64,000 bases of DNA from Penicillium oxalicum (taxonomy: Eukaryota > Ascomycota > Eurotiomycetes > Eurotiales > Aspergillaceae). Shown here in pieces: positions 330 through 60,902 of this stretch. Both the position numbers and the translations under genes were made by a program. Where the stretch lies: NCBI RefSeq assembly GCF_001723175.1, contig NC_064652.1, positions 2,170,001-2,234,000 on the forward strand, given 5' to 3'. A model generated the notes under the pieces. That model worked only from the letters and a program-made list of their open reading frames with translations, was not told the DNA's origin and searched no databases. Positions within the stretch are counted from its first letter, which is position 1, and every line of letters starts with the position of its first letter.

Positions 330-600
330 AGGCCACTATACGTAACATTTTTCCTATGCCAGGTGGGGCTTTCCTATTTTAGCTGCCGCCGCTTTTATGA
401 GGGCGCTCAGAGTCAGGCTCACTGAGTAAATTTCAGTCCGGGAATCAGAGTCACTGAGCTGCTCAGCATCGTCACGTGACAATCAGTGAGTGCTCAGTGA
501 GTGCTCAGTGAGTGCTCAGTGAGTCTGATTGGATGCTCACTGAGCCATCACTGATTACTCAGATATTCGGCAGAGGCATCTATTGAGCACCCAGTCGATG
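330..600 (+). repeat. Left terminal inverted repeat with CTCAGTGAG motifs
   Basis: The outer part (about 338-375) matches the reverse complement of 60852-60894 with gaps. Inside it the motif CTCAGTGAG or its complement CTCACTGAG, full or one base short, recurs about eight times (418, 451, 483, 493, 504, 514, 537 and 548). Three of these are in tandem at a 10-11 nt period. Similar clusters sit inside the right end. Such subterminal repeats may be recombinase-binding sites; that role is inferred. Confidence 0.65.
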
Positions 601-973
601 CTCAGCCTATACCCAAACGAGCGCTTTGCCCCACCGTATTGTTTATCTTCCAACCTACTTTTTGATGGGCCTCATTCTTCACCATGTCCTGTTTTTTGAG
701 GTACTCGACCCTCCAATCTCTTTCCTCAGCCCCCACAAATTAATGAACAGGGGCACGGTGACTCAATAATGGAGGGTTTAGGGATTCCGCCATGCACCGG
801 CGCAGGAAAAAGGCGATCCGCTATTATCAGAACCCGAGATCTGTGCTTAAGTCCCGGAGTACAAATTGTAGCTGCATCCCGCATTTCAAGACGCAACCCA
901 TATTCTCTTCATCCTTAACTCAATAATTACTTCCATTCATTCATTCAGGCGTTCTACGAGAATACTTTCCGTT

Positions 974-3900
974 ATGGGTCAGAAGACCTTCTTTGCTCAA
1001 CAAGATGAGGCCTCCAAGCAACTGGCAAAGAACGGCTATGTTTTTGGCGCTTATGCGAAGGAGGATGCTATCAGACAAAAAGACAAAAGGATACCCAAGA
1101 CGAAGAAGATGTATTCCAGTGTTGTCCGTCGTTGGATGGAGTGAGTTTTATTATCCAGAGGATTGCCCGCCGCATGCGTTGCTGACTGCTCTTAGATTCT
1201 TTGAACAAAATGGCATCAAGGGCTATGAGTTTGGGCCAGGATGTGCGACTCCAGACTATGTGCTCCTCAAAGAATTTTTCCGCTGGTATGGTCATACCGC
1301 GCGAGGCAAGAAAAGTAAGAACGGAAGACCGGTGATGACATCGTTTCTGAATTGTGCAGAAAGGCTGTTTGGTGGGTTTGAAGAAGAATTGCAGATCAAA
1401 ATTGTGATGGAAGACAGGAGCGAGATATATAATGTAAGCTTTTGCTGAACTCCATGGTACACGCAAGACTAACCGCAGCACAGTGGATAAGGAGAACATT
1501 AACAGGCAACGAAGGGTGGATTGAGAATGTTGAAGATCCAGACCACAGTTTCACCAAGAAGGATTTTCTCCGAGTGATATCATCTATATGGAAATCGGAT
1601 CATCGCCGATTCATCCCCGGATTACTTAAGGCTATCATCACGCTAGCTCTTCAACTATATCTTTTTACCGGAGCAAGAATTGGAGCATTTATACCAGCCC
1701 ATGAGGATAGAGACAAGAGAGGCCTAAGATATAAGGTGAATATATCCTGGCGTTGGAGTTGTGCTATGCTAATTCTTGTCTAGGACATAGAGCTGGTGTT
1801 ATTTCCATCCCCTACGGCCCCTTGGAAGGTCGAGTGGAAAGTCAATCAAGTCTGGTTAAAGAATAATCGAAACCCAGACTACACTGTGTAAGTCAACAAA
1901 ATATAAATTCTTTAGCATTCTGCCTATAAATGAGAGTTTACACGCTGATATAATTTGAAGGTTTGGAATTGGAATCCGTGATACTAAGAAACCACAGTTC
2001 GCATCTGGCTATGTCCTTCTAGCTATTGCCCTTCAGCATGGTGCCCTATTTGGTATCAATACAGCGGAAGACCTAGCGAAGTACGATCTTTCAGATGGAC
2101 GCCCAATTCCATTACGCTGGAAGGATGAGTATCTGAATAAGCCGGTGCTCAGAAATGTCACGGCCGATGGCCCACAAGATGTCCCCCTCACCAAGGAGCG
2201 GTTTTGTGAGATACTGCGTGGAAGAGTCACTGCTGCTGGATATAGCGAGAGTCTGACTATTCATAAAGTTCGGAAATTTCTGGGAAGTGTAATTGAAGGT
2301 GGGTATACAAGTTCGATGTTCTGTCGGTCAGAGTTTTGCTAATTGTGGGTACAGGAAAGCATGGTTCTGCCTTGGTATCACAAATATACGGACACAAAGA
2401 TGCGGGAACATATCCTAAAGACTATGTGTTACACTGCTCTTCGATCGATACCGTCTCAGCCGTTCTAGGCGAGGAAGACCAGTCAAGTCACATTGAGTAT
2501 TTCCAAGGATGTGAAAAATTTTATGAGCGCGGACTTCCAGGGGAGCTGCCAGCAGAGGTAGAGGAAAAAATTCTGCTAAAGCCAGAAATGGTTGAGATCA
2601 GAAGTCGGATCAAGGAGCTTGAAGCTCTAGGCGACAAAATATCCATAAATGCGGAGAGACTGAAATACAGAAAGACCTTGGTTCGATTCCGCCTTTCCGA
2701 GCTGAAGAAATACCAAAGCAGCTGGATACGGGAGAGAAGAGACCAAAGAATTCTCAACAAAGGGAAAGACGAGCGGGCACTTGATGATGATGACGTTTGC
2801 ACACGTGTTCAAGCCTTGATTATGCCTGATTTTGCGCGAATTTCAACCTTGATGAATTTCGACGGCGAGCTTTCCTTCGATGAAATGCTCCTTTTTGTGG
2901 AAGACCTAAAAAATCACTGTGAACGTGACTTTGATGTGATCTATCTTCCACAAGAAAGCCCCGTTAAGGGTCGCTGCCCCGCTAGAGATTGCAATGAAGA
3001 GATTACACGGTGAGCTGTCTAGCCGCAGAAGAATGAAACTATACTAATGTTCTCAGTCTGAAAAAAACCGATAGGAGTACCCACATTCACAACTGTGTTC
3101 GACGCGAGATTGCTTTGAATCATCAAGTCTTGGAATCAGAGTTGAAATTTTGCTACGAGTGCATGAAGTGGTTTCAGCTAAGTCACTGGCGAGACCACTG
3201 CTCTTTCCACATCCAATCATGGGTAACTCGGCAATGTGAGGTGATCGTATATCGTCACACTGTGATCCGCCCCGGCTACTGCCCTTTCTGTGTATGGAAC
3301 AACGATCTTGCCGCCGAAGACCGCTTACACTACTGGCTGACCAGTGGTAATTTGAGACAACACATTGAAGAGCAACATATGAATGGAAATCAAAGTCATG
3401 GAGAGAAGTCAATATGCGGATGTGGCGAAAGTTTTGACGAAGAACGTGGCCTCCGACACCATTTGCATGACATTCACAAGCTAAACAAAGCCATATGGCT
3501 AAGTCCAAAGCGCCAGAGGAAGAGAAGGAATACCTGCAAAGCGGAATCGCGAAAATCTTCAGAAGAGCCAGAGGAGCGATGCTCGAAAAGAGTTCGGTTC
3601 TACCGCTATCCGCCTCCACGTCACGAACATGAGTATCAACTTTCAAACACCATTTTCATTCCAGTTCCCACATTGCATGCCTTTGTTGAAGAACATCCCG
3701 AGCAATATTATTGTTCAAGTTTGAGCAGTAAGGCAACTCAAAGCAGCGGAAGTAGCTCAGGTAGTCTCTGCTCTTCTGCAACAATTTCTCCGCTCAGCTC
3801 GCGACCAACAACGCCTGGTTTGGATGTGATTGATCCAAGAATCCTCACCCCATTGGATTTCTACCAAGCCCGGAGACCTCAGCTTTATGGCCAAGATTAC

Positions 3901-4647
3901 TCGGAGACGGATGTCCTTGAAATACCACCAGATGGACAAGATATCAAATGCCAAACCCTCAGCGTCGGAGCCCATACAGGGGCTCCAATTCGAATTACTG
4001 CTGATCAATCCACTACCGGTCTTGAGACCATTGGTTCTTGCTCTCTCGAGCCAGCCGAGAAGAACACAAATGATGGATACAAAGATCGTGGTGGTGTTAC
4101 CAACCAGCTACAGTTATCTAGCCAATCATCAATCGAGACCAACGCCATAGAGAAGGCCACAGGAGTAAATTCTATGGATTTGCACATTCTGGGGGTGTCT
4201 ACTACTGGCTTTACCGCAAGTGAAGCAAACGAGGAAAAGAAACACTCTCGAGATGCGCAGCCTGATTCCAAGTCAGCCAACAGCATATGCTCTGATGCGG
4301 AGATTGAGTCAGAAAGCCATTACCCCGCCCATCAAGGACTCATTGATCGGGTCACATCTCTTGGTACGGACTCGATCACTAATCTCAAGAAACCTCTTAC
4401 CCGAGCCCAGGCCAGAAGACAACAACCTATGCAACAGTCTTCAAACCATTCGACAGAGAAAACGCTTCGACAGAAGCTTAATGCAACAGAGAAACGGAAG
4501 CTTCGTGAGCTCAAGAGCAAAAATTGGACTCTGAGGCAAATTGGGCCTCATTTTGCCGATATAGATATGACCTGGTTAAGGCAAGCTTGGATGGATATCA
4601 AACCCCCTCAGCGATGCACTCGATCACGGGCAACTCAGATAGCTTAG
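974..4647 (+). CDS. DUF3435-type tyrosine recombinase, Starship captain
   Basis: Probable transposase of the giant element. Joining 974-1140, 1196-1433, 1484-1735, 1784-1887, 1961-2298, 2355-3009 and 3057-4647 gives 1,114 codons plus stop with no frame break. All six introns are GT..AG and 47-73 nt long. Candidate catalytic residues are R200 in TGAR, H355 and R358 in IHKVRK, H380 in YGHKD and Y390 in TYPKDY. Cys/His fingers follow (about 574-725: CPARDC, CYEC, CPFC, CGCG with paired His). After a Ser/Thr-rich linker, a Myb-like helical end lies at about 1055-1110. It is the first gene and reads inward, as expected for a captain. The start is the first ATG giving the typical N-terminal region. 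It shows no RIP damage, unlike the retroelements. Exon ends are read by eye. Confidence 0.88.
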
Positions 4648-6500
4648 TTAAGCAACTGAATATTAGATCAGAAGACAACCACACTTTTATGATAAAGCAC
4701 TGTTTAATTGTGAATTATGATTTCCAATCATAGTTCCCCCCTTCCCCCGAGAGGATTCAAACCTCCTTAAAGGTTATCCTCTGTACATATTTTTCGTTTC
4801 GCCGGCAAATAAGTTGATGTGGTTTCGTTATTCTTAGTAGACAAATTCAGTTAAGTATGAGCTAGTAGTTATGCCAGAACTGGAATTAGTGCATCACAAT
4901 CTTTTGTAATACTGTAGAATTCAACCCTCGATTGAAAAGAGTCAAGATCATATAGGCTTTCCTTCCTGCAAAGATATATTACAATAAATTTACAATTACA
5001 GTTCTGTTACGTCAGTGCACCGCCACACTCTGGAGAACAATCTTGCTTGAGGTTTTTTTGAGAGGTACTGTACTGTATGAATTACGTTTCGGCGTGACCT
5101 GTACAATACCAATCAAGGGCCTCTTGGCAGCCAATCGAACCTCAAAACTCACCCTGGAACTACTGTCAGGCTCCGAAATCGATACATGATGCCTCTCGCT
5201 GCTGGTATAAGAACCTGGAGAAGGCACAATACAGTGGTTGGAACATAATGCTGATTTAGTTCGCCAAAAAATGGGGATAACGGGGATCCGATTCCCGATA
5301 TTCGTGGCCTTGTAGTTAAGCCACAGGCACAGGCTAAGGCTGCAATTTCCATTAGTAACAGTACCGGTCGCCAGTCTACTGAGTGGTATCTCAACACGTG
5401 CGTGTACAAGTCGTCATGTCGTATATCGTATAAACGAATCAATATGCAAAATTATCGATGACAATCATGTTCTGGTGGAATTCTCTGATTTTTAAGGATG
5501 GCCTTGATTCTGGCTTGATTCTGGGGTTGATTCCTAAATAACCCCTAGGAGCCATGTGTTGGGGATAAATTCTTGTAAATAATAAATCCCAGGTCGTGCA
5601 GAGGCACCTCAGATACAAGGTTGGAATCAGCCCCAGGAATATGGCGGACATCTTTCAGAGGGATAGTTAGGCTATTTAACTTCGTATTGACTATTGTAAC
5701 ACCAATGGCACGTTTCTTGGCCCCCTGGATCGACGATCACACTCCTTTTGATTGGAGTATAGGAGGTAAAAAGTTCTCGGTCTGATACCGCTGAACATAA
5801 GGATAAACATGGCAAGGGAAAATCCAAACCCTTAAGATTGTGGCTATTTTGCAAAATCACTGACTAACAGGAGTCCACCAGTCTCTCCATGAAATCTACA
5901 ACTATATGAGTGTCTGAGTGTCGAGGTTTCGGGAAAGTGAACAATAGAGTAAGTTTGGTTTTTCTTTCATTACAGCACACAGTAAAAATTTCAACAGTAT
6001 GATCGCTGTGCCCGGACTTGACTTATTCGAGGCAAGCGGCAGTTGCTGGGATTCTTCTTGGCATGGCCCCCAGCAACCGAGAAAATGGATGATGGTTGGA
6101 GGCTTCTGCTCGAGATATTTCTATGAAATCCAACCTCCTCAAGGTACGGCTGTTTGCTTACCAATTTGACTCCATCTGGACTTCTGTACGAGCGCCGACG
6201 GTGTTTCAAGACAAGCAGATAGCCTTTTGCAGCAAATCTGCCAGCATAGGTCTCCTGAGGTGCGTGCCCTTTGACCAGCAATCTAAGAGCGAGAACTCAT
6301 GGCAACAGGGTGAAGACAACCCAATTGTTTTTCTAGGTCAGGGCTTGGGGGCGGGGAGGAGGGGGAGGGGGGTGCTCATCAAACAGGTAAATGAGGAATA
6401 GCCTGCATCGTGTCGGTCTCGTAACTGATCCAATTGATAGGCGCTAGTGAACGCTTCATCAATTAGAGTTTATTCAGGAGTGAAGGATGCGACGTACTCT
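4648..6500. other. Gene-poor interval after the captain
   Basis: I find no convincing gene. Short open frames on the minus strand at 5012-5442 and 5672-5860 lack recognisable motifs and splice context. A purine-rich G-run lies at about 6346-6372. Confidence 0.4.
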
Positions 6501-6529
6501 AAGTGGATTCTTACAGTGTGAATTATTCT

Positions 6530-7024
6530 ACTGCTGACTATACAGGATGGGGATTTGCTTTTTTCGGTACCCCCCACTCTGTGGAGAATGCAACACCAAG
6601 CGGTTGTTCCAAAATACTGGTGGAAAATCTACAAGTTCCTCCGGAACATGGCGGTCTTATTAGTGAACAACTCAACGACTTCAACTTCTTCTCAATCTAC
6701 GGTGATAGGGATGAGGTTGGATATCCGATTTTCATTACTACACGAATTGCTTGGATTTGTTGGTTTAAAGTTTGAGAGATTGACTTATCTTGTTTAATAG
6801 ATCACGCCGTTTCGTTCAGCGGTACTCAATCTACCAAGTGACCGAGAAGCCCAGGTTGACTGGCCGGAAACCACGAGGAGCTGTGTCACTTCCCTGTTGG
6901 CTCGGAAAACCATAGGAATGCCACACGGTGGTTATAGATACTCTGTGAACAAGCCTTCTGGAAACGGTGTGCAAGAGCATGAATGCGTTTTGGCCGAGCA
7001 CAATATCAAATCGCCTATTTCCTA
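6530..7024 (+). pseudogene. Decayed serine-esterase-like domain fragment
   Basis: The frame from about 6540 reads AFFGTPHSVE, then a stretch ending in FFSIYGDRDE. After a plausible short intron ending in TTTAATAG at about 6800, it continues as ITPFRSAVLNLPSDRE to a stop at 7024. FFGTPH followed later by a V/ITP..SAVL.LP block is the order seen in the alpha/beta-hydrolase (DUF676-like) domains of fungal esterases and of NLR-type proteins. Neither the upstream nucleophile region nor a downstream NACHT or repeat domain is visible, so this is a fragment. Such genes are common Starship cargo. The family call is moderate to low. Confidence 0.45.
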
Positions 7025-7119
7025 ATCTAATTTTGAGCACTTGTCTTTTCTTTTGGCAATTGACGATCATAGAATTTTTTTTCGGTATATTCATGGGAAA
7101 GAATGGAAATCACCTTACT

Positions 7120-7310
7120 TATCTAAAAAGCAAAGACATGTACGTAATCTTGGTAATCTACGACCCTCGGACAACGGATTCAGGGGCATTGGTTGGACCA
7201 TGACCTGGAACACACGATAATTACTTGAATTAATTGAGTCTGCTTTTCGAACACACATGCTGCACACTTGACCGTGTACACACAGCTAGGAACTACCTTA
7301 CCGGTCTTTA
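7120..7310 (+). repeat. Dispersed repeat, copy 1 of 3
   Basis: This stretch aligns with 21240-21425 and 37046-37215. Shared blocks include AAGCAAAGACATG (copies 1 and 3), GATTCAGGGG, a CCTGG block, and a GTGTACACA-type block near the end. Copies differ by many substitutions and small indels. No coding capacity is visible. It may be a solo LTR or MITE-like remnant. Confidence 0.6.
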
Positions 7311-7431
7311 CTGTACTCCAGGCCCCACATGAAGGAAAACTTAATGCTCTAAATGCTGACTTTACATATCTTCTTCAGGCTCATCGTATTTGCGAGGTTG
7401 AAGGATAATGACTGTTATTTTGAATTCACTT

Positions 7432-7935
7432 TAATCCGACCCAAATTCATAGTTAATTGACAGTGATTTCACTTTAAATCTCCGGAAAGTGAAGCCGAAG
7501 TAGCGTTCAATAATTTGGTAAATAATTTGTTAAGCAAGCTGTTATTGTCAAATATTTGTGCGCAATTGATGTGTGAGCCGGCGAAGTGCCATTATTTGAT
7601 CAATCTTCAGAGGCTGTGATGGTGGGCAGAGATGAGCGATTAATTGAGAGTGATTAATGGAGAGTGATTAATGGAGAGTGATTAATTGAGAGTGATTAAT
7701 TGAGAGTGATGAATTGAGAGTGATGAATTGAGAGTGATTAATTGAGAGTGTTTATGTTGAGATAAGTGATTGTCTGATTGATTCTTATTGATTGATTTTA
7801 AATAGTGTTTTCATTAAAGGGCGGGATGCCTCATATACATCACTTTCCAATCCCTGCCATAAGGTTCAGCCACCGTGATACTCAACAGATTAATTGAGAG
7901 TGGTTAACTGAGAGCGATTAATTCAGAGTGATACC
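7432..7935 (+). repeat. Inner inverted repeat, left, with 14-nt array
   Basis: It starts with TAATCCGACC, whose complement GGTCGGATTA closes the partner at 55865-55874. The two arms align with gaps (CTACTTC, GTGAAATCACTG, TGCGCACAAATATT and GCCCACCAT blocks in the complement). The array of GATTAATTGAGAGT-type units lies at about 7630-7755, about eight copies, with three more at 7888-7935. The partner array at 55445-55665 is in the opposite orientation. This marks the ends of a 48.4-kb inner segment. Confidence 0.7.
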
Positions 7936-8329
7936 ACCCCTTACTAGCTCTAGGATGACTGTTATAAGACGGGTACAGTACAAAGAGGGGTTTCATATGA
8001 CGTAGACCCTCTCATGGGGCATTTCGTCTTCGGTTGGGGTTCCCAGAACTAACTTCCTCTCAAGAAGATTCTCTCAAGAGGTCTAGCCTCCCAGAATAAT
8101 CGTTTTATTATAGGGTTTCCAAGTACACACACACACACAATTCATTAACGCCCGGCGGCTGAGCCGAAAGGGCAACTAAAACTAATCTATCGATACACGT
8201 CCTAATATATATCTGCCGTGTCTCCTTCGAGCCCATACATGGATCCTTGGGCAGTATATGTCCTCTCAGCTGTCAATATCAAAGGGATCCTTGTGGGTTA
8301 GTAAGTTGATTAGTAGACTGGCTTGAAGG

Positions 8330-11247
8330 CGCTTCTTCAAGTGTTCAACATCCTATCCTCGGCAGTTGAAGCGCGTCCACCATTTGTGGCACAAGGTGGT
8401 AGGTGTAGGTTGGTGAAGGGGGAGGAGGGTGTCGTTGCGTTGGTTGACGTGGTTAGGTGGCGTCGAGTCGGCCCGTGGCGATCGCGAATCGTATTGAGGC
8501 TCGCACCGCTTCCAAGTTCGGCATCCATCGCTGATTGTCCGAGGGCGATTTCCCGCCCAGGAAGAAGGAGAGATTGCCCCGGTGAGTTTGACTAGTCTGC
8601 AGTAATGCTATTCGTTGTGTGGTCTACTTCCGACATCGAAAGAGGAAGTGTTCCACGGTCTCTCTTGCTTGTCCATATACACACTAGTCCGTGTCTGTAA
8701 CGTTAATCCGACGGAGATAGCTATTGAGTCTAGCTATGCCAGTCCGGAGTTGGGCTAGCACGCTCGCTTCTTTCTATAATAATCGATTATATAGCTATCG
8801 AGTGTGTTTCCCTGGCAGTGCTATATCTACTCGTTTCACGTGTCTTCCTACGTTCTCCGGCAAGTTATTACTAGGAGCTACTTAAGACCGAGCGATCTTC
8901 AGTGTTGTCGACTTTATCCTAGGGGCAGATTTTTGCAGGGCGGTATCCTTCTGGGTCGCGGTCCTAGCTTGCTCTTTAGCTAGACTTAGCAGTTTATTGT
9001 CCGCGCTAGTAGGAACCTATAGGATATTAATATTGTTTCCGTTTCTCCGTAACCTTTTTATTAACTTGTACGTTTAGCAAACGAATTCCTAGCCCGACTA
9101 TTGCCGAGGATTCCTTATCGTAAGGGCCGCTACTTTGTTACTTATAAGTAGCGTGATCCTGTAGTCTTTTAGCCCTACTAGTATATTTAATATATATACT
9201 AGTGCTACTAGCTCCGCGGAGAATGGATTTTGCTCTAATCTTAGGCCTAGTGTCGTGGAAAAGGTCTTTAGTTTTAGCTTCCGATATCGAGGCGGCTATT
9301 TCTTGATCGCTACCCCAAAACCTACGAGGCCGTTTCGTGCTAAACTGCTAACCGTAACTTATAATAATCCGCCCGGTATAGTATACGAGTGCGGTATTAC
9401 TTTAATATCGCTCTGTATACGAGTCTCCTACGGTGCTAACACGAACGGATTAATAGTTTCTAGAGTTTCTATCTTAATATTTTTTAGCGCGTCCGCTACC
9501 TAGTATAGCGGCGAACGGTAGTATCTCCTAAACTTCTTTATACAGGCTGTACTCCTGCGGAGCGGGTAGGTTTCTGGAAGGGTGTAAATATCTGTCTATA
9601 TTTTCACGGCCCGTCTCTAGAAGCGGTGTTGTACGGTAGTAATATAAGCCTCGGCCTCCGCTACGCTAGTCGCAACGGTGAGAAATATCCCGATAATTAC
9701 TTGCGCTCCTACCCTTTAGACTCGATTAATCGGCCTACTAGCCTTATCCTTGTAGGCGTATATCCAGACACTAGAAGCATAGTCTACTACTAGCGCTACT
9801 ATCGATATAAATAACTGTCGAGCGGTTGCTAGCGTTAGGCCACGAAGTCGCTAAAGCTCTATCGCTACCCCTAGGCCTTTAGATACCGCCCTCGCGATAT
9901 GTTCCTTGTACTTGAGTCTTGTGTCTATAAGAACGCCTAGGATCTTAACGTAGTCTCTAGGTATAACGGTCTGTCCCTTAATAGTAAAAGGCACCTTATC
10001 TGTTTTGTGAACTTTAGGAGCGAAGTATATAATAGTAGTTTTGTCGGCCTCAAAAGTCGCTTCGCTCCTTTTCTCCTAGTCGAGCGCTTCCGCGATAATT
10101 GCTTTAATACCTTCCCGATTACTCTGCGCCGTTAGTCCGGTTACCTACGCGGTAAAATCGTCTACGAACGTAATTACCCCTCCTTAGCTATCGATCTGTC
10201 GTTAAACGAGGTCTGCGTTAAAGAAGAGGAATAGGATTAGAGATAGCGGTAAGCCCTATAGTAGTCTAGCCTAGGGTAGGCTTTAGACCTCAGATAGTTA
10301 CCTATTAATTTGAATGGTCGTAGTCCTTTCCGAGCAGAACGCCTTAACCTACCGGAGCAGGTCCTCCGGTATGCCTCGCGCTTTTATCCTTTGAAGCAAT
10401 CGTTCTTTGTATACTCTATTATAAGCTCCTTTAATATCGAAGCTGATCAAGCTTAATACCCGTCGGCCGCGCTACGCTATATAGATTTGCTCTTGCAGGA
10501 ACATAAGTACTTGTTCCGCAGACCGCTATTTTCGAGCCCCGAAGTGGCTAGTTAGGAGTAAGCCGTACGTCTCTACTGCGTATAAGATTCTTTCTGCAAC
10601 CACTGACTCTAATATCTTACCTAGCATCGCGAGGAGCGAAATTAGTCTCTATACTTTAGTAATATTGTAGCTCTCTTTATTCGGCTTTTTGAGCGGTATA
10701 ATCTTCGCGTGTCTCTACTACCTTAGTAACGTGCCTCCTTCTAGTAAGGCTCGAAAGAGATCAAGAACCCTGTCCTTAACCGTGGGCCACGTTATCTTCT
10801 AGACTATTACTAGCAGGCCGTCTTCGCCAGGCGCTTTCTAGGATTTCGCCGCTAATAGTTACTACTCTATCTCTTCTATCGTGATCGCTAGCATTTCTAC
10901 CGCTACCCTTTCTAGTCTCGTCCCTTTATCGTTAATACTCTCTGGCAGAGGCGGGAAGAATATGGTTAGTAATTCTTCTGCTTACTCCTTGTGATCGGTA
11001 GTGGTCGTTCCGTTTGCTCTAAGGAGCTACGGGACCTTTCTAAACGCTACGTCGTCTCCCGACTTTAGGTATTTAGCGGCTTTCTATATATTATCGTTGT
11101 CTGCAAGGAATTTATTCTAGTGCTTTTTCTTTTGTTACCGGATAGTATCGTAGTATTGCTTCGCTGCGCCCTAGGCCATCTCTTCTAGACAGGAGACCTT
11201 TCGTCCCGCCCGTTACTCCGAGCGGGCGTGATTTCTCTAATATATAT
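8330..11247 (-). pseudogene. Tad-like LINE reverse transcriptase/RNase H remnant
   Basis: Read on the minus strand, a coherent frame runs from near 11000 to about 8340. It has reverse-transcriptase blocks including FVDDFTA near 10160, then KILGVLIDTRLKYKEHIA near 9920, an RNase H region, and a C-terminal GGKSPSDNQRW..NLEAVR block near 8500. That order is the 3' half of a Tad-clade LINE. It is interrupted by many TAG and TAA codons where Gln or Trp is expected, fitting RIP. ORF1 and the endonuclease are missing, and the 5' side is cut off by the LTR at 11248. The last 300 bp are little mutated. It is non-functional. Confidence 0.85.
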
Positions 11248-11595
11248 TGAAGAGGGGAATGCTCACGGCAGTCTGATCTCACCAGACAGGTCGAGTCATA
11301 GAGGAACCAAACCAAACCCACAAGCACGCAAGTCCTGGAATCCTCCAAAGTAATCGTGAGATCCGATGTCAGGTACCAAAGGCAGGAATCAAAAAGAGTA
11401 TGATATTTCAAGTGTAAGGAATCTGACTGTAAAGACTGTCCTGAATCCTCCGTCCAAACTGTTGTTCAAGTATGATGATGATGCCGGATCCCGCAAGCTA
11501 GGTCCTAGATAACCTTCCTCGGCGGTAAGGCTCTCAGGCATCTCCTACTACTGAATATCCGCCTTTAAGTACATGCAACCGAATCCCCCACTACA
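11248..11595 (-). repeat. Solo LTR (copia-type), 348 bp, minus orientation
   Basis: On the minus strand it begins TGTAGTGGGGGATTCGG and ends CCCCTCTTCA (TG..CA). By eye it is identical to 35217-35564 in the opposite orientation. Flanks are AT-rich with a shared ATAT, so any duplication is only approximate. It cuts the RIP-damaged LINE yet carries no RIP damage itself. Confidence 0.8.
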
Positions 11596-11834
11596 ATATT
11601 TAATAATGCGGTGCATAGTGTGTCCTCACGACCTTTTATCCCATACACTACTTTAATGCTTATTTTAAGGTTAATCTTCCTGAGATTTGGAAACATACAC
11701 AATAGACGTTTAGTAATTGTACTAGTAAATCCAGGATTCTATTCTAATCTTTATCAATGCCAAATCTGGCCCTCAAAGGCATATCACTATGGCTCTGTGA
11801 GACTTACGTGTTTTTTTTTTCGAACTACGAAGGC
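11596..11834. other. Spacer between solo LTR and hAT element
   Basis: AT-rich DNA with no gene that I can support. It ends in a poly-T run (about 11812-11820) directly before the GAGGGT-rich left end of the hAT element. Confidence 0.4.
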
Positions 11835-14800
11835 CGCGAGGGTCGAGAGGGTCAGGAGGGTCTCCTACGGGTGACCCTCAGAATACGAGGGTAAATCTGC
11901 GGGTGACCCTCGCGACCCTCATATATTGACCAATTAAGAGATATGAGACCCACTGCTAAGTGGGTTGTATGATGATCTATCAACTTATGAGTCTTTAGCC
12001 CTCTGAATCCCCCTAGCTATTATGAATCCTACTGACTTGAGTTTTTGTCGGTAAGTCCCTCAATTTCTTGTTATACCCTCTTCTTCGTCTCTCCTTGCTT
12101 AGCGCTACGAATATCCTCCACTATATACTATGTCTCTACACTTCTCTGATCTTCCATCCTCCTCTATTTACGAGGGGGATTCTTCGGCAGATCCGCTTGC
12201 CTTTAGTTTCCCTATCGACTCTCAGCTATTTACACCAGAGATCTCAGGAAGTCAAACAGCCTCAATCGTCAACTCAGACTTCACTCAACCTCTGCCTACA
12301 CCTCCTATCCCCGACTGCCTACAGCGCGTAGGCCCCGACCGGCATAGACAGTATATTATATATACTACTATGTCAAGAGATGATTTTGTTACTTGGTGGT
12401 TAATGACAGAATATGGGATGAAAAAACGAATTAACTGGGACACAAACCACCAATCTGAGTGTTGGAAACAGTTTGAACAGGTAGCAGATATAAAGACTGG
12501 GAAGCCTATGGCTATGTGTAAGGTATGCGCCGCGACTCTGGAACATCCAGCCCTTTGCCGCCATGGAACGTCTTCTATGAATAAGCATATGAAGGGTCCA
12601 ACATGTCGCAATAAGAGTACCAAAAGGCCAAGTATTAAGCAGATAATGGAGAACGCTGTGAGTTAAAGCTCCGCCTCTATTCTTAATAAAATACTTATAT
12701 TACTAGGCAAAACACACTCCGAAAGCTACAGTCTTCACCCAGGACGAATGGGAGCATAAACTTCTAAGACTACTCGCGATGTCACGACTTCCTTTTCAAT
12801 TCATTGAACATCCGGAGTTCCATGACCTTATTTCCTTCGCGCGCCTTGCACCACAGCGGCCTATCATTCCTACTGCAAAAACCATTCGCGCGCGGCTACG
12901 AGGCTTTGTAGCGGAACAGCAACAGAGTATCCTACGACAATTGCCAGAAGGCTCAAAGCTTTCACTGGCATTAGATTGTTGGACATCTCCCTTTCAGCAG
13001 GCGTTTATGGCGGTGACCGGCTACTTCCTCGACCATAGCTGGGAGTACCGGGAGGTCCTTCTTGACTTTGAGCCTCTTTCTGGCTCCCATTCAGGTCTGA
13101 ATCTTAGTGAGGTACTAATAAAGCTCCTCCAACAACATGATATTACAGACCGAGTGCTCGCAATTACCACTGATAATGCGTCGAATAATAATACCTTGGT
13201 GAACTTCATGAATGAGGCTATCCAGTCACTTGAGCTAAGTGATAGCTCTGTTATACGCGTTCCATGTATAGCACATGTTATCCAGCTTAGCTTAAAGGAT
13301 CTCCTTGGTCAATTGAAAGCAAACCCGAAAAACGAGATGGCTGAGACAGAGTGGTCTGAAGCTTGTGTCCAGTCTCTTCGTGCGACGCAGCAAAAAAGAG
13401 AGATTGTTAACACGTTGAATAAGGTGTATACATACTCCTTCTACATACTTTTCTCTTATTTTCTAATCTAAGTATTAGATACGCAGCCCGGCTATTTACA
13501 TCAACAGTAGTCCCCAGCGTCGAGAGGCCTTCTACAACCTTCAAACAGAGGAGCCAAAACTTGTTCCTATCCAGGATGTCAAGACTCGCTGGAATTCGAC
13601 CTTTCTTATGCTCCGGCGCGCAAAGCGGCTACAGTCTACCTTTGATGAGTTTTACGAGCATTATGGCCAAGATCAGTTTGCCATAAGTGCAGAGGAATGG
13701 CGCCAGATTGAGTATCTGCTTTGGATTACACAACCATTCTTTAAATTCACTTCCCTTCTCTCGCAGACGAAAGATGTGACTATTCATCTAGTCTTCAGCA
13801 TCTACAACAAACTCTTTGACCATCTAGAAAAGTCAATCCGGCAGCTTCAGCGAAAGAAGGTCCCTTGGAAACAGTTGATGTTAGCTGCCCTCTACGCAGC
13901 TAAAAGGAAGCTTTCTCAATACTATAGCATGACTGATCAGATCCCTGGTGACCTTTATGCAATCGGCACAATAATTGCACCGCAGCAGAAGCTTCAGTTC
14001 TTCTCGACCAAGGATTGGGATAATGACTGGCGTTCACGGTATCGCAATAGTTTTGAACATTGCCTTGAACCCTATCAACGGCGGCTTTTGAGCACCCAGT
14101 CGCCGGCTAAGGTTCAGCCATCAGTCTTAGCTATCTCTGAGCTTGAGATGATATGTGAACCAGAAGCATCTCAACAGTCAACGACTAGCCAACATGATGA
14201 GCTTTCGCGATATCTTGATAGTGGTATGTGATCCATATCACTAATTCGTACATTTATAACTAACATTACTAATAGCACCAGTTCGATCTGTTCCTCGTGT
14301 CTTCTGGAAGGAGCACCAGCACGAATTTCCAGCTCTTGCGAGCCTTGCCCGTGACATTCTCTCAATTCCCGCTACTGGTGCAGGTGTAGAGCGGCTTTTT
14401 AACTCTGCTCGAGATATCTGCCACTATCGCCGAGGCTCTCTTAATCCTACGACTATCCAAGACCTAATGCTATTCATGTGCACATCCCGGTTCGATTTGG
14501 AGGATGAACAGAGGGTATTGATCAATGAGTATCTCTCATATGAAGAGATGCAGACAGCTAGGGAGGAAAGGGATACCCAGGCGAATGGATTTGATCCAAT
14601 CAGTGACGACGAGGAAGGAGAAGAGGAAGATTCCACTCAGATACGGTGCACAGATCAAGCTCCTAGTGAAAGAAGTCAAGGCAAGCGGCGAAGGAGTGCT
14701 GGATCTAGGCCAGAAGAGAGCCGTGGAGATGAAGATGAAGATGCAGAAGTCCTTCCACTACCTAACATGGAGCAGCGCTTGTCAGGTAGGGTCCGGAAAC

Positions 14801-15155
14801 GATCTAGACTTCTTGATGGATATGAAACACCTTAAAGTAGTTCTGTAGCTAAATTTAATCTGAAAACAAAGCTCTTTCTTCTGATCTATAAAAAATCTAT
14901 TAGACTTTCTCTGTAGTCCGAAGATACAAGCGAAATACTCAAAAAATACAGCAAAATCTACATAAAATATGCATACAGCGAGGTCCTACTGTTTGTTCTG
15001 TTTGACCACCCGCGGGTCACCCGCGGGTGACCCTCACGAGGGTCGGAGCTAGCCTGGACCCTCGCTGCGGGTGAGAATGTCAGACCCTCGACCCTCAAAA
15101 CGAGGGTCTGAGGGTGACCCTCTGAGGGTCACCCGCGGGTGAGGGCGAGGTCTAC
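11835..15155 (+). mobile_element. Intact hAT-family DNA transposon
   Basis: An intact transposase gene (12130-14835) lies between two clusters of GAGGGT/ACCCTC and CGGGTGA motifs, at about 11838-11925 and 15008-15150. Subterminal repeats of this kind are typical of hAT elements. I could not fix the exact terminal repeat or the 8-bp duplication by eye. The element shows no RIP damage and was probably inserted recently, next to or into an older Tc1/mariner remnant. Confidence 0.7.
12130..14835 (+). CDS. hAT transposase
   Basis: It would cut and paste the surrounding element. Exons 12130-12657, 12707-13423, 13479-14223 and 14276-14835 join in frame to 849 codons plus stop, with three GT..AG introns of 49-55 nt. 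A BED-type zinc finger lies near residues 120-165 (CKVC followed by paired His). The catalytic core follows, with LALDCWTSP, the acidic/Asn block ITTDNASNN and CIAHVIQLS. Near the C-terminus is the hAT dimerisation motif PATGAGVERLFNSARD. The tail is acidic and basic. No stops or frameshifts are seen, so the gene may be active. Confidence 0.9.
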
Positions 15156-15159
15156 CCAC

Positions 15160-49150: not shown

Positions 49151-52100
49151 ATATCCCCTTCCTCTTTCCTGTTAGAGAGGTAGAATTTTTAGAGTATAGG
49201 AAGTTTATAAAATTTAGATTTCTTCGTAGGTATCTAGGCTTATATTAGAGTAGGTATTACGGTCGGGATCTTTATAGTAGTCGTTATCCGCGCGGGTAGT
49301 CTTTTAGGTAGGCCTATTTAATCGTTTTATAGTTATATCGGTTATCTTTTTAATATTTTGGATCTTTATATTATAGAACTTTTCTTATATAATCTGTTTA
49401 ATTCGATTATCTAGGTTTAATAGTAGTGTAGATAGTTCTTCCTAAAAGTCTATATCTCTTCTGATTATAACTTTTCTCTTGTATAGGTCGTAAATCCTAT
49501 ATTAGTAGCTATTCTTACTATTATATCTAACTAGGTATCTAATCTATGCCCTCGGGGCTATCTTTTGTCCTTAGATTCGTTATTCTTTTAGAATATAGAT
49601 ATAGGCTTTAGAATACTAGATACGTAAAAACCCTAAATCGATTAGTTACTTTACCCTAGAGCTATTAGTATTATACTAGTACTTATTCTATCTTTCTAAA
49701 GGGGACAATTTTTTATTTAGTTTACGGATTTATTTTATAATATAGGTAGTAGTAACTATAGCTTTAGGCCACAAAAATACGGGAGCTTAGGGCGTAGCTA
49801 CTATAAGGGTTCGGGCCCCCTATATAATAAGATATCTAGAGCTTTTAGTAACACTATTTTGTTTATAGGTATAAGGGGCGCTTATTAAGAAAGTGTAACC
49901 CTTCTGCTTAGCCTATTCTTTAAATTTAAAGAAACTTCTGTCTCTATCTATACGGATTTCGGAAGGCTAAGTGCTAGTAGAAGTAAAGATACGCTTTAGT
50001 ATTTAGATTAGGATATCCGAGGCTTAGCCTTTTATCTTTATTAGAATAGCCTATCTGAACCTAGTAGTATCGTTAACTACGATTAGGATATATAATATAT
50101 TCCCGATTCTAAGAGGGGTGCATAGCTAGATATTAATATAGATAAATTCCTATAGTATCTTAGAGCGTGTCTAGTTTATATAGGATACGATCCTCTTAGA
50201 TTTTGTAATCTTACAAGCTTTATAATTAAAATATTCGTTACTATAGACCTCCTTACCGATTTTGTGATAGTTAATTTTTGCGGTAGGCTATCTAATATAA
50301 CCTAGACGGTAATAGGCTACTTCTAGTAAAATTATAGCAAAGGAATATACGGTCGCTATAATTAGGGAGGCCTTCTTTTCGTACGCTATAGATAGTTTGA
50401 TTAAAGTAGCCTTTAGAAATAGGACACCTTATTTCCTATATACGTATACTATAATCTTTTATTTATTATCTAGGTTAACAAAAATATTCTCCTAGTCTTT
50501 CTAGCCTATTTTGTAGTCCTTGTATATTTAGGTCGTAGATAGGAGATTAAAGTTATCTATTAGTATTTATTTGTATTGTATATCAAGGGTTTTAGTGCCT
50601 TCTAGGAGGATTAATTTAATTCGAGCGATCGCTTTTCTAAGAGATTTAATAGTTCTTCTATCAGAGGTCTAGTATTAATAGCTATATAGGTCACTTTAGA
50701 ATTTTATAATTATATTTCTATTAACACAAATCGAGCGTAATATACCTAAGTTAACGATCTACTTAGTAGAGGGGTTTCTTTTAATTAAGGCTATAGCAAG
50801 CTAGGGATCTAGGCGGTCGGCGAAGTCGAATTCTACTACTATAAGGACGTAGTAGTACTTATCTTCTTCTTCACTAGCCTATATTGCTATATTTGCGCTC
50901 GTATTATTATCTGTATTACCTCCTATATTAGTATCTTCCTCTTTAAGATCCCTTCTATATAGTTAGGATTAGGGTTAGGCCCCCTTTAAGATAATCGAAT
51001 TCTTGTTCCTATTATTCTTTCTAATAGAAATTAGTATTATTAGATTTTATTAGCTCTTCTAAGGATTTTGGAAGGTTTAGGTAGAATTCTAGGTATTACC
51101 CCCGTTCTTCTTAATTCTGTTATTATATATTATAGTCTACCCTTCTAGCGGTAGTCTATTTAGATTATTTATATTCCTCTATAGGGTATTTACCTAGATA
51201 CCTTTAATAGGCTTCTAATCTAGGGTTCGCGATATAATAACTAAATAGGCGCAGTCCTTAGTAGTATAGCCTTTTCTTCCGCAAAAGAAGTAGTTACCGT
51301 TCGGGTAACCTAATTTAGGCCTTTAGTCTATTCTTTTACCTATTCCTATAGTAATTTACCTCTCGGAGGTATATACTTTAACGGGAGGTATTTATATTTA
51401 TCTAACGAGGGTTTTGAAGATTTTCCGGTTATCGTAACGCTTGAAAATTAGTAATTCACGATTTCTAGTTTATAGATTACCTCGGTGAAGGTTCGGAAAA
51501 GGTCTAGGGCGGTGATCTTTGCGATATTCTCGTATCTGTTAGAGTAGTCTGCTAGTCTAGTAGCTACGAAGGTTAGAATATTACTTTGCAATTTATTAAG
51601 AAGTAGGGAAACGATTATACCTAGGGTAAGTTAGACTTCTTCCGTTGCTTTAGTATAGGTACTACGAAATTCATGCACAAAGTCGATCGCTAATAGGTAG
51701 TTAGCCTAGTAGGTTCGTAGGACCCTAGTTACCTTCTTTTTGCTAGGAATAAAGCCAGTAGTATAGAGGGCCTTTTTTAAGCTAATAATATATTTATTAG
51801 CGAATTCGTATCGGAATCTCATAGCTTTGACCATTGCATCGATCTCCTTTAAAACAGACTATTAGAGCTATATCTATATAGCATAGGAGTGTTCGACCTA
51901 AGTTTCTGCTTCGTTAGATATTATTTTGGGCCTGTTATATTTTGGGTTAACAAGACGATAGAGTCCTTTCTTTTCAAGGATTTAGTATATATCTCTGAAC
52001 CAGTCTTCAAAGTCTTCTGTTCTTTCTAACATTTTAAGTAGATTGAGGGTGAATTCTTTAGGGGCGCTAGTAAGTTAGTTCACTAGCTAGCCTCGGGATT

Positions 52101-52633
52101 TCAGGGTAAAGAAGTTACTATAGTCTTCGCGAGATACGGGAAATTCCTTAACACCGGCCGCTTAGCCGAGGTCTTCTTTAGCCATAGTTAGTATTCAGGA
52201 ATGTGATAGAGATTTGGGTAAATATGATGATTTGGGTGGTTTGGATAGGATTTAGGGATAGAATTTAGTAAGAAGGGAGGTTTGTAGGGGATATATATAG
52301 TATTATTGTTAGTGTGTTGTGGTAGGGTCTGAAGTGAGAGATGTTAATGTTGTGGTGGTCCTAACAAACATCAACAGACGCGTCTTTCTTTTGTTAATAT
52401 TAGATTTAGCTTCCATAGCCTGGTTGAATTTGTTGTATTTGATGAGTTTCTGGCTTCTATAGCCTAGTTAGATTTGTTGATTTGTATTGGATTTGGTAAT
52501 TTGAATTTGGTGATTTGGTGATTTTGGTGATTATGGCTTCCACAGCCGAATTTGATGAATTTGGTGATTAAAAATTTGAGAACTTGTGGTTTTCACAAAT
52601 TCAGGCCTCACTATTGCGATCGGGCTCATAACC

Positions 52634-52814
52634 TGATAGACCTACAGGTCTACAAGGCAAGGAAGCAATCTGGAGGCGAGACAACTAGGATTGGGAAGTC
52701 TAGGGAGAAGGAAGAAGAGAGAGAGAGGGAAAACCCACGATGGGGGAAAAACCCTCAAGACACATGACCGCTGCTGGGCCTAGCAAACATCTGGAGAGGG
52801 CAAACTCTCTCACT
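52634..52814 (-). repeat. Copia LTR, 5' copy
   Basis: Partner of 39205-39385. The neighbouring 52200-52620 is AT-rich leader (repeated TTTGGTGATT-like stretches) between this LTR and gag. Confidence 0.85.
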
Positions 52815-55439: not shown

Positions 55440-55874
55440 ATTCACCTCAATTAATTTACTTTCAATTAAGCACTCTCAATTAAGCAATCTCAATTAAGCA
55501 CTCTCAATTAAGCACTCTCAATTAATCACTCTCAATTAATCAATCTCAATTAATCAATCTCAATTAATCAATCTCAATTAATCACTCTCAATTAAGCACT
55601 CTCAATTAAGCACTCTCAATTAATCACTCTCAATTAATCAATCTCAATTAATCACTCTCAATCACTCACCAACGCCCACCATAGCCACTACAGATCACTC
55701 ACTTCTTGGCAATCCGCCCGGTCGCATATCAATTTCGCACGAATATTCGAAAATAATATCGTAATTTCAAAAAAAAAAGATGATAAATAAATATATAAAT
55801 AAATGTAATTTTATAATGCTACTTCATTCAGATTTTAGGGTCTCAAAACTGAAATCGCTGTCGAGGTCGGATTA
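55440..55874 (-). repeat. Inner inverted repeat, right, with 14-nt array
   Basis: About 15 units of CACTCTCAATTAAT-type sequence (variants AATCAATCTC and AAGCACTCTC) lie at about 55445-55665. The unique arm follows, ending in GGTCGGATTA at 55865-55874. It is the inverted partner of 7432-7935. The array is longer here than on the left. Confidence 0.7.
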
Positions 55875-58230
55875 GCCGACGGGTGGACAACGCCACGGGA
55901 GATGATCGAAGTTAATTCCAAAATAACGGTTGATATAATTTAATTTCGCCTATACGATAGGCTGACGAAACCATGCAAAGCTGGAATTTAGAGCATTAAG
56001 CTGCCCTTTGTGTGGATACTAGATGTATTGGTCAATTGTCTAAGTAAAATGACCATAGCGAATTGACCACCCTCGGTGCAGCGGTGAATCGAACAGCACA
56101 GAACGGGTAGTCAGTCGCAAATACTGTGCATAATCATTAATACACTGAAATTATACAAGAAAACGGACCATACAAAATCGAAAAATAATTCAGGAGAGAA
56201 GGGGAAGCAAAATTAAAAGCCATAAGCTGTGTAAGATGAAGGTAGTCAGAACTGGATGGGCAGACGAAGTGTGTGATTGGAATGATAAATGATCAGGTCG
56301 ACATTTTCGGGATCCCGGGAGTCGCCAGAATCGTCACTCCGGTAGTGCCGACAATCGCGCAGGCAGCGAGAAATGGGGTTGAGCACTCCAGCTTGCTGTC
56401 TACCAGATTTTAGTGACATATATTCAACCCATTTTTTCATGATTAAAAGTAAACCGACCTGGACTGTCCAATTCGCGGACTTTTCAAAGGCTGGTTTGCC
56501 ATAAGCTACGACAATCTCATAGCCTTCCAACCCTGCTTACACAATCCTCGTGCCCCCAGCTATCACATCGTTTAGAGAAATACTTCGGAAACGCAATGAT
56601 TTGTCTTGTTAGTGGAAAGCCGCTTATCAAAGCCTTATATTGCACATAATCGAGAATAATCAACATTGAACTAAAGCCTTAGTGTATAAGTTGCAAGGGA
56701 GGTTACAAAGAAATTCCGAACGACACATAGGAAGGTCAGTGACTGCCTGCTTGCCTGCCGACTAAAAGTGGTGAGTATTATAATTACCTCGATCGAGCAC
56801 GAGCATAATAGCTATACCTTCCTCCTCTTCTATCCTTACCTTTTGAAAGTCCGAGCGAGACTATATGATTCATCGACGATATCTGCGGATAGTGATGTTA
56901 ACGCAATAGGGCGCAGACAAATATTAATACTAACAACCTCCTAGAGTCGGAGAGCAGCTAGAGCCCCTTAAGTAATAAATAATATCCATACTCTTATACA
57001 TTTTCCGGTCATAAATGGTCACTCTACATCTTGTAGTAATAACATATTTAATTTACTAGAGTATTAGCTTCTACTACTCTTATACCTTAAAAGAAGTGAA
57101 ACCATTCTTTTTGTCAAATTAGAAATAGAATGATATTAGGTTACATGGCGATTAGTGTAATTAGATTGCAGATGTGCTTTTCACCTAGCGGTGGTGCTTA
57201 TTTGAAGCAGTCACTCAGGCTAAGGCGGGTTAAGCAGCTGATACTTATAATACCAATAGTTCGTGACTGAACAATACTTGTTCCCTGCATACATGACTAA
57301 GTATGTAATTTGCCCCGAGAATGTGGCTGTGCAGTACTGTAATGTGGCTGTGTGGAGAAACTCGATTTACCTGATAGAACTCACGTAATCCACGGGTGAG
57401 CCATCAATATGGGCTAACCGCAGGGTTCCAACATACCAGTGATGTGAGTGGATGAATTACAGTATAGCTTCGGATCTCAACAGCGTGCCTAGTTCGCCCA
57501 TACAGATTTGTGCATATGCATTCGTGCGTATCTATAACTCCAACATGCAAGATGACTACAGCAGGTGTACCTCTAATTATCTTCCATTTCTTTCTAGTCC
57601 TAATACGAGCGGTACCACCTGTCTCCCTAGAGTTTAGTCAACTAGGCCAAGTGAATTCAAACATCTCAACTACCTTATGGCCCGGAACGACAACAATCTA
57701 TTATATTAACAGTGGCTGGGTGAAATCCTGCCAATTTGAACATGTCGAAGGCGATGTTAATTAGAGAAGGAAAGCACACAAGAAGAACATGCGAAAAGTA
57801 CACAAGCCATATGATCTGTATTTCAAAATCTGACTCAGCAAAGACTAGGGAACAACATGAAAACTCAGTACTATTGTTCCTGCACTAACCCTGGCATTCA
57901 AGACGTTGAGATGGCGCTATTCCTTAACCTTATGAGTCCGATAGGGTTGTCCGCAACCTGGAAGCTGAAACAACACAGAAGCATCAATGCAATCAACTAT
58001 GAAAATTTTAAACTCCTAGAATAGTGTACAGTATAGGGTCTGTCTCATGCATGGCAGCCATGGCTAGTCTTTTGCGTCGTGCGACTTCAAACAGTCACAC
58101 ATTTTGTTTCTCTTTTCCTACGTCTCGTCATTTAACTGTGCCTGAGGACAACTTCCCAGAGCCCCCGCCGATTGTTAGACAGATTGATTGCCGAAATAAC
58201 TCCAACGATGTATTCTGCCAAGTCTAAGAC
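55875..58230. other. Gene-poor interval near the right end
   Basis: AT-rich DNA. Short frames at 56246-56530 (minus), 57452-57764 and 58024-58227 (plus) have no motif or context I recognise. None is supported as a gene. Confidence 0.35.
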
Positions 58231-60300
58231 TTATAGTTTGCGCAAAGAAGGGTAATTGTCGTTGCTGGATCTTATGTTTTGGGCCAATCTCGCCGATCGC
58301 CTGGGTTCAGATTGATAACCGTCGTTTGAAAGTTTGCGTTTCAAACGTCCCGCAGCGGAGTCAAGTGGTGGTTTTCCCTTAGAATAAGCATCTTTTTCCG
58401 TTACTTCCTGGGTGATAGTATCGCTAGTCATCAAAGGTGCCCGTAAACTGTTACCAGTCGCAGGTGAATGTGGACTGTGCGCTGAAGACAGTGCGGAGAA
58501 GGTGAGGAAGACTTTTGAGTCTACCGTGTCCGATTGAAAGTTCAGAACAATACTCCTAAAGAACTCCTTTCGTTCCTTATAATCTGAGGCTAAAAAGGGC
58601 CAGTTCTTATAGAGTTCAATGTAGATTCGCCCTGTGAAGCCGTGCCGCCATTTAGCCCCTAGCTCGCGTTGTGCCCCGGTGGATTCAAATATCACAATTC
58701 CATCAGACCGTTTGCGAGATGCATGGAAATTAATACCATGATTACCTTGGGGGCCTAGAGGGGAGAATGTGAGAAATACACTTGGGTTTTCTCTGTCTAG
58801 ACGCACGACCACAGCACCTCGCCCGAGGAGAGTATCGTTATTCTGAAAATTCTCTAGGCTGCAAGGTATACCTGATGAGAAGTCTGTTCGGAGTATCACT
58901 CGGTTGATAACAAAGGTTTCCGGCCAAGTAGCCCCCTTTTTCGATTCCGGGGCATAGAACCGTATGGTTACGCGGCCTTGTTCGCTTTCTTCCCTTAGTT
59001 GTTTGGACCTCTTTAAGTTTCTTGATAATGTATTTTCTGCAAAATTCATGCGTTAGCAGCTGTATTGGGCGTATACTGGATAGTACGGAATCACTGACGG
59101 GGAGACTGGATTCTATCAAAAAAAGATTTAGCGTGTAAACAATCAGTACTTCGACAGTGCTCTATGTGATTGTGTATCTCGGCTAGTTTATCGCCGATGG
59201 TAGTAGACGCGGAAGAATCCTTAGTTAACGCCGCTTTGCTTAAACACTTGATTCGGTTCATATTATCCGTTACTTCTTGCGATAACCTGTGGGTCGTGTA
59301 TTCTATGTCACAGGGATTAATTGAGAGACTTTCCCCAGAGGAACTTTAGGCTATCGACGTCTCTTCTGGAACGCCGTTGCGGGTTATCAAAAGAGTATCA
59401 GTCACATTTCGGTCCTCTTTTAGCTCCTCTATCTTGGAAGCTTTTCCTTGCTTAGTTCTCCTCTCGCTTCCTAGTAATACTCAAGATTTAGCGTAGTAGG
59501 GTCAAATCATTATCAATTAAGCGTACCTTTATGGTTAATCGTAGCGCCCTCACTCCCTGTAGCGCCAAAGGGATCGTTACCGAGATTCTGAGTGACTTTC
59601 AATGTTTAGCGGTCTAATTAAAGCTATTCGACTGACTAAAGACCCTCTAGATTCTTAGAGTCTATCGGTTTGTTGGATATATGGATAGAGGACGAATTGA
59701 TAGCTGCGTTATACTTCCCTGGATAGGCAATTTTTCCACTAGTCAAAGATCCATAAAATTCCGGGGTAGTCATTATCTCAGTGTCGGCATCGGAATCAAA
59801 ATGGTCTGGCTCATCGCGAAGCCAATCCTCCTCAACCTAGATTATATTGGACTTAGAAGCCGAGTTTGGCAGAGCAGGTTCATCTTCGATCAATATAGGA
59901 TTGGCCAACGTCCCCAGCTCAGGGACAACCATAGAGTCACATAAGGCCATTTCAGACTATTCACGCGACCAACTAGGTATTGAACAGTAGACAGAAGTGG
60001 TTTAGCTCCCTGGTGATATGATCAAACAGAGGGCGATGGTGGCGGTTACTTTGATGAGAGTAGGCTTGAATATATACCCCTCAGTGAAAGTGACACCACT
60101 TGACTCTAGGACGGTATCACAAGTTCTACTTCCGTTCCAAGTTCCTGGGAATCTAGATAGTCATAGATTACGAGCGAATTTGTGAAGGAGATTTACACAC
60201 GTCAACAAAATGGCGCAAAGCCGGACGTTCCCAGGATCATCCAGACGGCTTCTCCGCCTGGAACAGTCTTCGAATCAACCAATCAATCATCCGGCAAGTT
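58231..60300 (-). pseudogene. RIP-inactivated gene of unknown family
   Basis: The 3' exon (59041-58231) is fully open: about 270 residues with FYAPESKKGATWPETFV, a VFLTFSPLGPQG block and a basic end (GRLKRKLSNDGY). Upstream, across an intron (59087-59048: GTCAGTG..GCTAAC..TTTGCAG), the frame continues through SLSINPCDIEYTTHRLSQEV. After a second possible intron near 59510 it reads GNDPFGATGSEGATINHK, then EEDWLRDEPDHFDSDADTE and beyond 59900. Every stop met in these frames (TAG, TAA, TGA near 59345, 59490, 59605-59640, 59865, 59985) becomes Gln or Arg if T is read as C. I do not recognise the family. The start is not found. Confidence 0.55.
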
Positions 60301-60659
60301 CCCAGGAGCAATCTCTTCTGAAATATTGTATTCCATGGAGATTCGTGTTTGACCAAGCATGCGTTCCGGTACGTGTGCTCAATGTAGAAAAAAGATGCCC
60401 GGAGTAAGACTTGCGGTCTTCCAGTATGTTCATGTGATATCTCTTAGACTAGCTCCTCTATGGGCAGTGGAAACCAACAGGCAAGGGTTCCCAGGAGCAC
60501 ACAGATGATTTAATAGGTTGATCAACCATACTGAGGCGCAATGACTACCAAAAATGAAACATCAGGTTCTTGATGCCAATGCATTTGGATGGGACAGTGG
60601 GGCCAATCTAGAGAAAAAGAGCTTCACGTGGATGGGGCTAGCGCGTTGCGTTTTATTGA

Positions 60660-60902
60660 GGTGCCCTTATGCTCAGGGCAGGGTGTGCTCAGTGAGCAAG
60701 TCAGAGTGCTCAGTGAGTGGATCACAGAGCGCTCAGTGAGCGGATCAGTGAGCTTACATAATGCTCACTGATCAGGTCAGGGCGCTCAGAGGCGTGCTCA
60801 GTTCTACTCAGTGAGCAAAAGCGGCGAGGGGCTGAGCACTAAAACGGAAAAGGAAAGCCACGACCTGGCATAGGAAATCCGTTACGTAGGAGGTTATAGT
60901 CT
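60660..60902 (-). repeat. Right terminal inverted repeat with CTCAGTGAG motifs
   Basis: The complement of about 60852-60894 matches the left end at 338-375. CTCAGTGAG, CTCACTGA or ATCAGTGAG occur about six times between 60687 and 60825. The hexamer ATACCT follows at 60903-60908. Confidence 0.65.

Follow-up and report, generated by a model that had tools for sequence, protein, structure and literature searches.

Starships are giant fungal transposons able to move genes between species. They are well-supported vehicles of fungal gene transfer, and their edges are usually located through an empty site in another strain. In this study, we examined a 64,000-nucleotide stretch (hereafter the window) of contig C3 of Penicillium oxalicum, an industrial cellulase producer, and found that the block at positions 330-60902 is very probably a Starship whose captain, encoded at the left edge, is a tyrosine recombinase of the DUF3435 type. 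The window (C3:2170001-2234000) lies mid-chromosome in the 30.8-Mb, 17-contig assembly that was the genome searched throughout. As a Starship, the block is a previously undescribed element of an already known transposon class, and our literature search returned no paper joining P. oxalicum with Starships. The case suggests that a Starship can be delimited within one genome by sibling ends and end-confined repeats, and it offers a testable link between captain, hexamer target and cross-genus cargo in this species.

Published accounts describe Starships by captain, ends, repeats and size, with reliance on empty sites (PMC12134995, PMC12257634, PMC12289983, PMC11623301, PMC12153272, PMC12506042). 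Sanctuary, a Starship of Bipolaris sorokiniana assigned to the Serenity family (PMC12257634), has a 3′ direct repeat ATACCT and an imperfect 5′ repeat, ATWHCT (PMC12506042). Like the block at 330-60902, it has a DUF3435 captain near its 5′ edge and a 6-bp direct repeat with the 3′ letters ATACCT, and its haplotypes join conserved edges to a variable interior, which we count as a further likeness (PMC12506042). It differs in its length of 47.5-196 kb, its several accessory genes and its captain of 786 aa, for which a DNA-binding domain is predicted at the C-terminus (PMC12506042); the captain here shows only a modelled three-helix tail at residues 1046-1083. The shared ATACCT, which alone hints at the Serenity family, may reflect kinship or chance, and no Bipolaris protein is found among the 32 captain relatives in the candidates listed. 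The Starships of Aspergillus fumigatus likewise have a captain at the 5′ end, with direct repeats of 2-12 bp in 19 of 20 and terminal inverted repeats in 18 of 20; they rest on empty sites in a population of 519 strains (PMC12153272), whereas our block was delimited from one genome. Cryptons, first discovered in fungi, are likewise DNA transposons with a tyrosine recombinase, but by published description the kinship of that enzyme to the recombinases of Starships is very distant, and Starships, unlike Cryptons, sometimes have terminal inverted repeats and carry large cargo (PMC12134995).

Using a Starship size range of 15-700 kb with cargo genes, and treating terminal inverted repeats as frequent, not universal, and accessory genes as frequent, not defining, we found a cargo-bearing block of 60,573 bp in which the captain is the first gene and faces inward, the inverted ends are imperfect and direct repeats flank both sides. 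A preliminary description of this DNA had proposed that its organisation fits the Starship definition, which is borne out in these respects (captain, length above 15 kb, ends and repeats).

Captain, ends and flanking hexamer

The features on which this reading depends are the following.

324-329, no strand: 5′ direct repeat ATACCT (target site), identical to 60903-60908
330-420, + strand: left terminal inverted repeat, score 67 against the right end, with sibling ends
418-544, + strand: left subterminal repeats, CTCAGTGAG plus 11-bp tandem copies (5 of 9 window copies; tandem array 483-524)
974-4647, + strand: captain, DUF3435 tyrosine recombinase (7 exons, 1,114 aa, PF11917, catalytic residues, fold model)
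974-1140, 1196-1433, 1484-1735, 1784-1887, 1961-2298, 2355-3009 and 3057-4647, + strand: captain exons, from splice reconstruction
60688-60815, − strand: right subterminal repeats, CTCAGTGAG (4 of 9 window copies)
60812-60902, − strand: right terminal inverted repeat, score 67 against the left end, with a related right end at C8:203710
60903-60908, no strand: 3′ direct repeat ATACCT, identical to 324-329

The first gene at the left end had been described earlier as an intact, inward-pointing DUF3435-type recombinase, and the reconstruction agrees: a single splice combination among those tried keeps the frame open from the ATG at 974 through the stop codon whose last base is 4647. This ATG lies 644 bp inside the left edge, and no open reading frame (ORF) of at least 150 aa is listed ahead of it. 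The 1,114-aa product passes the DUF3435 profile (PF11917) with 77.5 bits against a cut-off of 25.8, the comparison that the preliminary description had proposed. The catalytic residues of tyrosine recombinases, including H365 and Y375, are conserved, and the predicted model has a Cre/Xer-like, recombinase-like fold. Among the matches listed, the closest protein is POX_c04207 of P. oxalicum (P0001), and identity is 42-79% to Penicillium relatives and 43-50% to two Aspergillus relatives. The viral contig and genome contig collections scanned held no relative of the captain, its comparison by sequence with solved structures gave nothing significant (best E 1.7), and NCBIfam returned no match for it or for the 642-aa cargo protein discussed below.

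The two ends match in inverted orientation with a score of 67 over 330-420 and 60812-60902, compared with a maximum of 42 in 2,000 dinucleotide shuffles. The diverged inverted ends first noticed at 338-375 and 60852-60894 likewise stand, their score of 52 being reached by none of 2,000 such shuffles (maximum 31). In an earlier and cruder control, one random pair among 493 drawn from the window outscored the end pair (98 vs 81). The left boundary is independently supported, because the blastn similarity of three related left ends (L049 at C2:387 kb, L050 at C2:4072 kb and L052 at C2:3030 kb) starts exactly at window base 329. A fourth related left end, at C2:2819 kb, aligns from 350, and a fifth, at C4:1997 kb (L048, C4:1993001-1999000, at about 4447), aligns from 369, with most of its tip lost; L048 holds a sibling left end together with a captain start, 87-92% alike. 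A pattern search for the left end that tolerated up to three mismatches found seven places. Two were additional to those above, one at C6:3766 kb with a single mismatch and one at C2:141 kb with three, and the latter may be chance since the reversed control gave one match. The right end has relatives at C8:203.7 kb, at C8:1515.7 kb with three mismatches and, as a weak match, at C2:1513.9 kb, and a match at C5:3640 kb spans the inner part of the query only. The first 792 bases of the right flank past the edge have no match elsewhere in the genome.

The preliminary description had also pointed to a shared hexamer just outside the ends, which is ATACCT on both sides. Its chance of occurring within 11 offsets of a random point is 0.36%, a figure that applies because the edge position is fixed by the sibling ends, so that the hexamer is unusual only by its anchored position. 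Four sibling left ends read with other hexamers at the same place (TTAGGT, GCAGGT, CTAGGT and ATAAGT), which argues for a target rather than a fixed sequence of the element. The 9-mer CTCAGTGAG, a putative captain-binding site, occurs nine times on both strands of the 64 kb, always within 215 bp of the ends, where an even base composition would predict about 0.5 copies in all; of two flank stretches of 10 kb, one contains a single copy and the other none. The G+C content is 0.442 inside the element, and outside it is 0.508 in the 10 kb leftward, 0.497 at 60909-64000 and 0.513 in the following 10 kb rightward.

By analogy with published Starships, from which we infer binding, excision and present mobility, captain monomers would bind the inverted ends and the adjacent CTCAGTGAG repeats, and the captain would pair both ends of the element. 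Strand exchange would take place at the short target sequence ATACCT, and the element would be excised with one repeat copy and reinserted at a matching hexamer. The interior has acquired further mobile DNA as well as cargo, of which at least one gene is common, almost unchanged, to another genus.

Several observations weigh against a Starship. The edges are read from a single genome, without an empty site in related strains, and in this genome we recognised neither a second complete copy nor a sibling with both ends near each other. A 6-bp repeat is weak taken alone: of 5,000 random pairs of 46-base stretches, 1,489 share a 6-mer or longer match, and two further shared 6-mers occur near the element ends. 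CTCAGTGAG is sparse at the sibling ends, with one copy each in three of ten loci (L049, L055 and L061) and none in the other seven, and is thus typical of this copy, not of the whole family. The AlphaFold model of the whole captain is poor (predicted local distance difference test, pLDDT, 57; predicted template modelling score, pTM, 0.45), pLDDT falls below 50 at residues 346-410, a stretch that includes H365 and Y375, and Foldseek E-values are 0.12 or worse. An exon-wise DUF3435 search of the genome gave 16 matches from which the captain at 974-4647 is absent; it scores only as a spliced protein. Finally, of the accessory families typical of Starships (DUF3723, patatin, NLR and ferric reductase), the Pfam scan detected none in the 50 ORFs that it covered, each singly, of the 205 window ORFs of at least 70 aa, and short exons may escape it. 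One of the 50 lies in the flank and was scanned one codon shorter than listed.

Two further observations concern the ends and the captain. The tips of sibling left ends look palindromic, e.g. TAGGTAG-GTCACT-CTACCTA at C2:387 kb, the tip in the window only partly so; a literature search on recombination-site hairpins of Starships found nothing on point. Seven more places in the genome (C6:10.6 kb, C6:299 kb, C5:1377 kb, C5:1576 kb, C2:861 kb, C3:3578 kb and C1:15 kb) hold DUF3435 genes or remnants of them, several interrupted by stop codons, and are possible further Starships or relics; the proteins from six of these places align to the captain in one 58-residue piece only.

Alternative readings: possible nesting, decay or chance assembly

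Within the Starship lies a second inverted pair, unrelated to the outer ends and absent from the preliminary description.

7314-7820, + strand: left arm of the inner inverted pair, with 14-bp tandem repeats at 7634-7754
55459-56027, − strand: right arm of the inner inverted pair, with 14-bp tandem repeats at 55442-55662

The arms are inverted copies of each other, and their outer 127 bases score 100, compared with a maximum of 47 in 2,000 shuffles. A composite, itself compatible with a Starship, is therefore a plausible reading, if somewhat short of an even prospect: a captain element of about 11.9 kb (330-7313 plus 56028-60902; 11,859 bp as a shell alone) would have been entered by a second element of 48.7 kb (7314-56027). 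This second element would have brought inverted ends of its own, with subterminal tandem repeats of 14 bp, and both would now move together if the captain works. All seven window copies of the 14-mer GAGTGATTAATTGA lie in the inner arms, and the layout, in which the ends are followed by tandem repeats that begin with GAGTG, is similar at the inner and the outer ends. However, no direct repeat of at least 5 bases joins 7280-7335 to 56000-56060, and no recombinase was found inside: the 32 captain proteins match the window only within 900-4700, and in the interior the proteins from six of the other seven DUF3435 places have no match except at a dispersed repeat. Further, no other copy of the inner ends was found in the genome except tandem-repeat look-alikes, and published practice does not count captain elements below 15 kb as Starships (PMC12153272). 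A nested element without a captain is the natural, still tentative, reading of the inner pair, with arms native to this Starship as the alternative; nested or not, the entire 60 kb would move as one unit.

Two other candidates for nested ends were rejected. A perfect inverted pair of 358 bp at 11241-11598 and 35214-35571 belongs to a dispersed repeat with at least 41 genome matches, and thus represents two independent copies; this repeat is about 350 bp long, with copies 85-100% alike, and resembles a short interspersed element, a miniature inverted-repeat transposable element or a solo long terminal repeat (LTR). A long array of the 11-mer GAGTGAATTGA at C2:2428-2431 kb (L039-L043, C2:2427975-2431348) resembles the 14-mer found in the inner arms, and was set aside as an inner-element end for having no captain match and no similarity to the window after low-complexity filtering.

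Decay is the next reading to be weighed, and it concerns the traces of repeat-induced point mutation (RIP) inside the block.

8001-11240 (ends approximate), no strand: RIP-scarred repeat, RIP index >0 in the four 1-kb bins of 8001-12000
39202-52813, no strand: RIP-scarred block of retroelement debris by RIP index, with two nested LTR-like direct pairs (39202-39384/52631-52813 and 41783-41942/49000-49158)

In 1-kb bins, the RIP index is positive at 8001-12000, 35001-37000 and 39001-52000, and slightly so at 53001 and 59001. It is possible, if rather doubtful, that the block is a genuine Starship whose mobility has been lost, as this heavy RIP in the interior and the orphan and damaged ends elsewhere in the genome, which show that the family decays there, would allow; yet the captain frame is intact, the captain bins show no RIP, and the ends and direct repeat are present. 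That the block is no element, only an island particular to its lineage, with a lone DUF3435 gene that lies by chance near unrelated repeats, is very improbable: such lone genes are common in the published account (PMC12134995) and the edges come from a single genome without an empty site, yet matched ends stand 60 kb apart on both sides, CTCAGTGAG is restricted to both ends and three sibling left ends start at the same base.

Cargo and neighbouring features

The Starship carries the following further features.

12103-14832, + strand: hAT transposase-like ORFs, PF05699 48.5 bits in 14260-14832 (hAT C-terminal domain)
15126-15542, + strand: Tc1-type transposase fragment, PF01498 42.2 bits
20184-20891, − strand: HlyIII-like membrane protein (weak), PF03006 25.3 bits, cut-off 26.2
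26853-28268, + strand: ORF with Myb-like domain (weak), PF13921 21.1 bits, cut-off 22.9
29110-29643, − strand: ankyrin-repeat ORF, PF00023 31 bits
30123-31599, − strand: cytochrome P450, two ORFs taken as exons, PF00067
33054-35038, + strand: cargo gene, 642 aa, intact, no Pfam domain, intron 34139-34194, terpene-synthase-like model
37553-38596, − strand: methyltransferase, 348 aa, relatives named LaeA-like, PF13489 42 bits

The mixed origins that had been ascribed to the cargo are seen in transposable element debris, host-type genes and a gene whose product is 97% identical to an Aspergillus protein. This last, the 642-aa protein, has its counterpart in Aspergillus japonicus CBS 114.51, and as the other relatives found reach at most 48%, the comparison of sequences points to transfer between genera. 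From its predicted model it is a terpene-synthase-like candidate; a comparison by sequence with solved structures gave nothing significant (best E 0.73), and a literature search on A. japonicus-P. oxalicum transfer and Starships found nothing on point. The two P450 pieces cover profile positions 14-366 of PF00067 in 30490-31599 (99.9 bits) and 367-460 in 30123-30476 (59.4 bits). For the methyltransferase, the best relative is 86% identical and the best named one, from Penicillium atrosanguineum, 81%.

Taken with the inner pair, these genes would allow a ship within a ship that moves biosynthetic genes between genera, a picture we consider unlikely as a whole. A small captain shell would carry a second element, making up most of the block, that lost its recombinase but retains inverted ends and tandem repeats resembling binding sites, and that rides on the outer captain. 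Aboard would be a set of three genes for a terpenoid-like product: a new terpene-synthase-like enzyme that has no known domain and is nearly the same in A. japonicus, the P450 and the LaeA-like methyltransferase.

Among the minor features, an F-box match in the interior falls below the Pfam cut-off, and a scan of the window for transfer RNA genes found none. A 13-bp tandem array, TTTCTTTTGATCG, lies inside the cargo at 36836-36966. Right beside the element, a flavin-monooxygenase-like ORF with weak Pfam matches occupies 62780-64000 and runs off the window.
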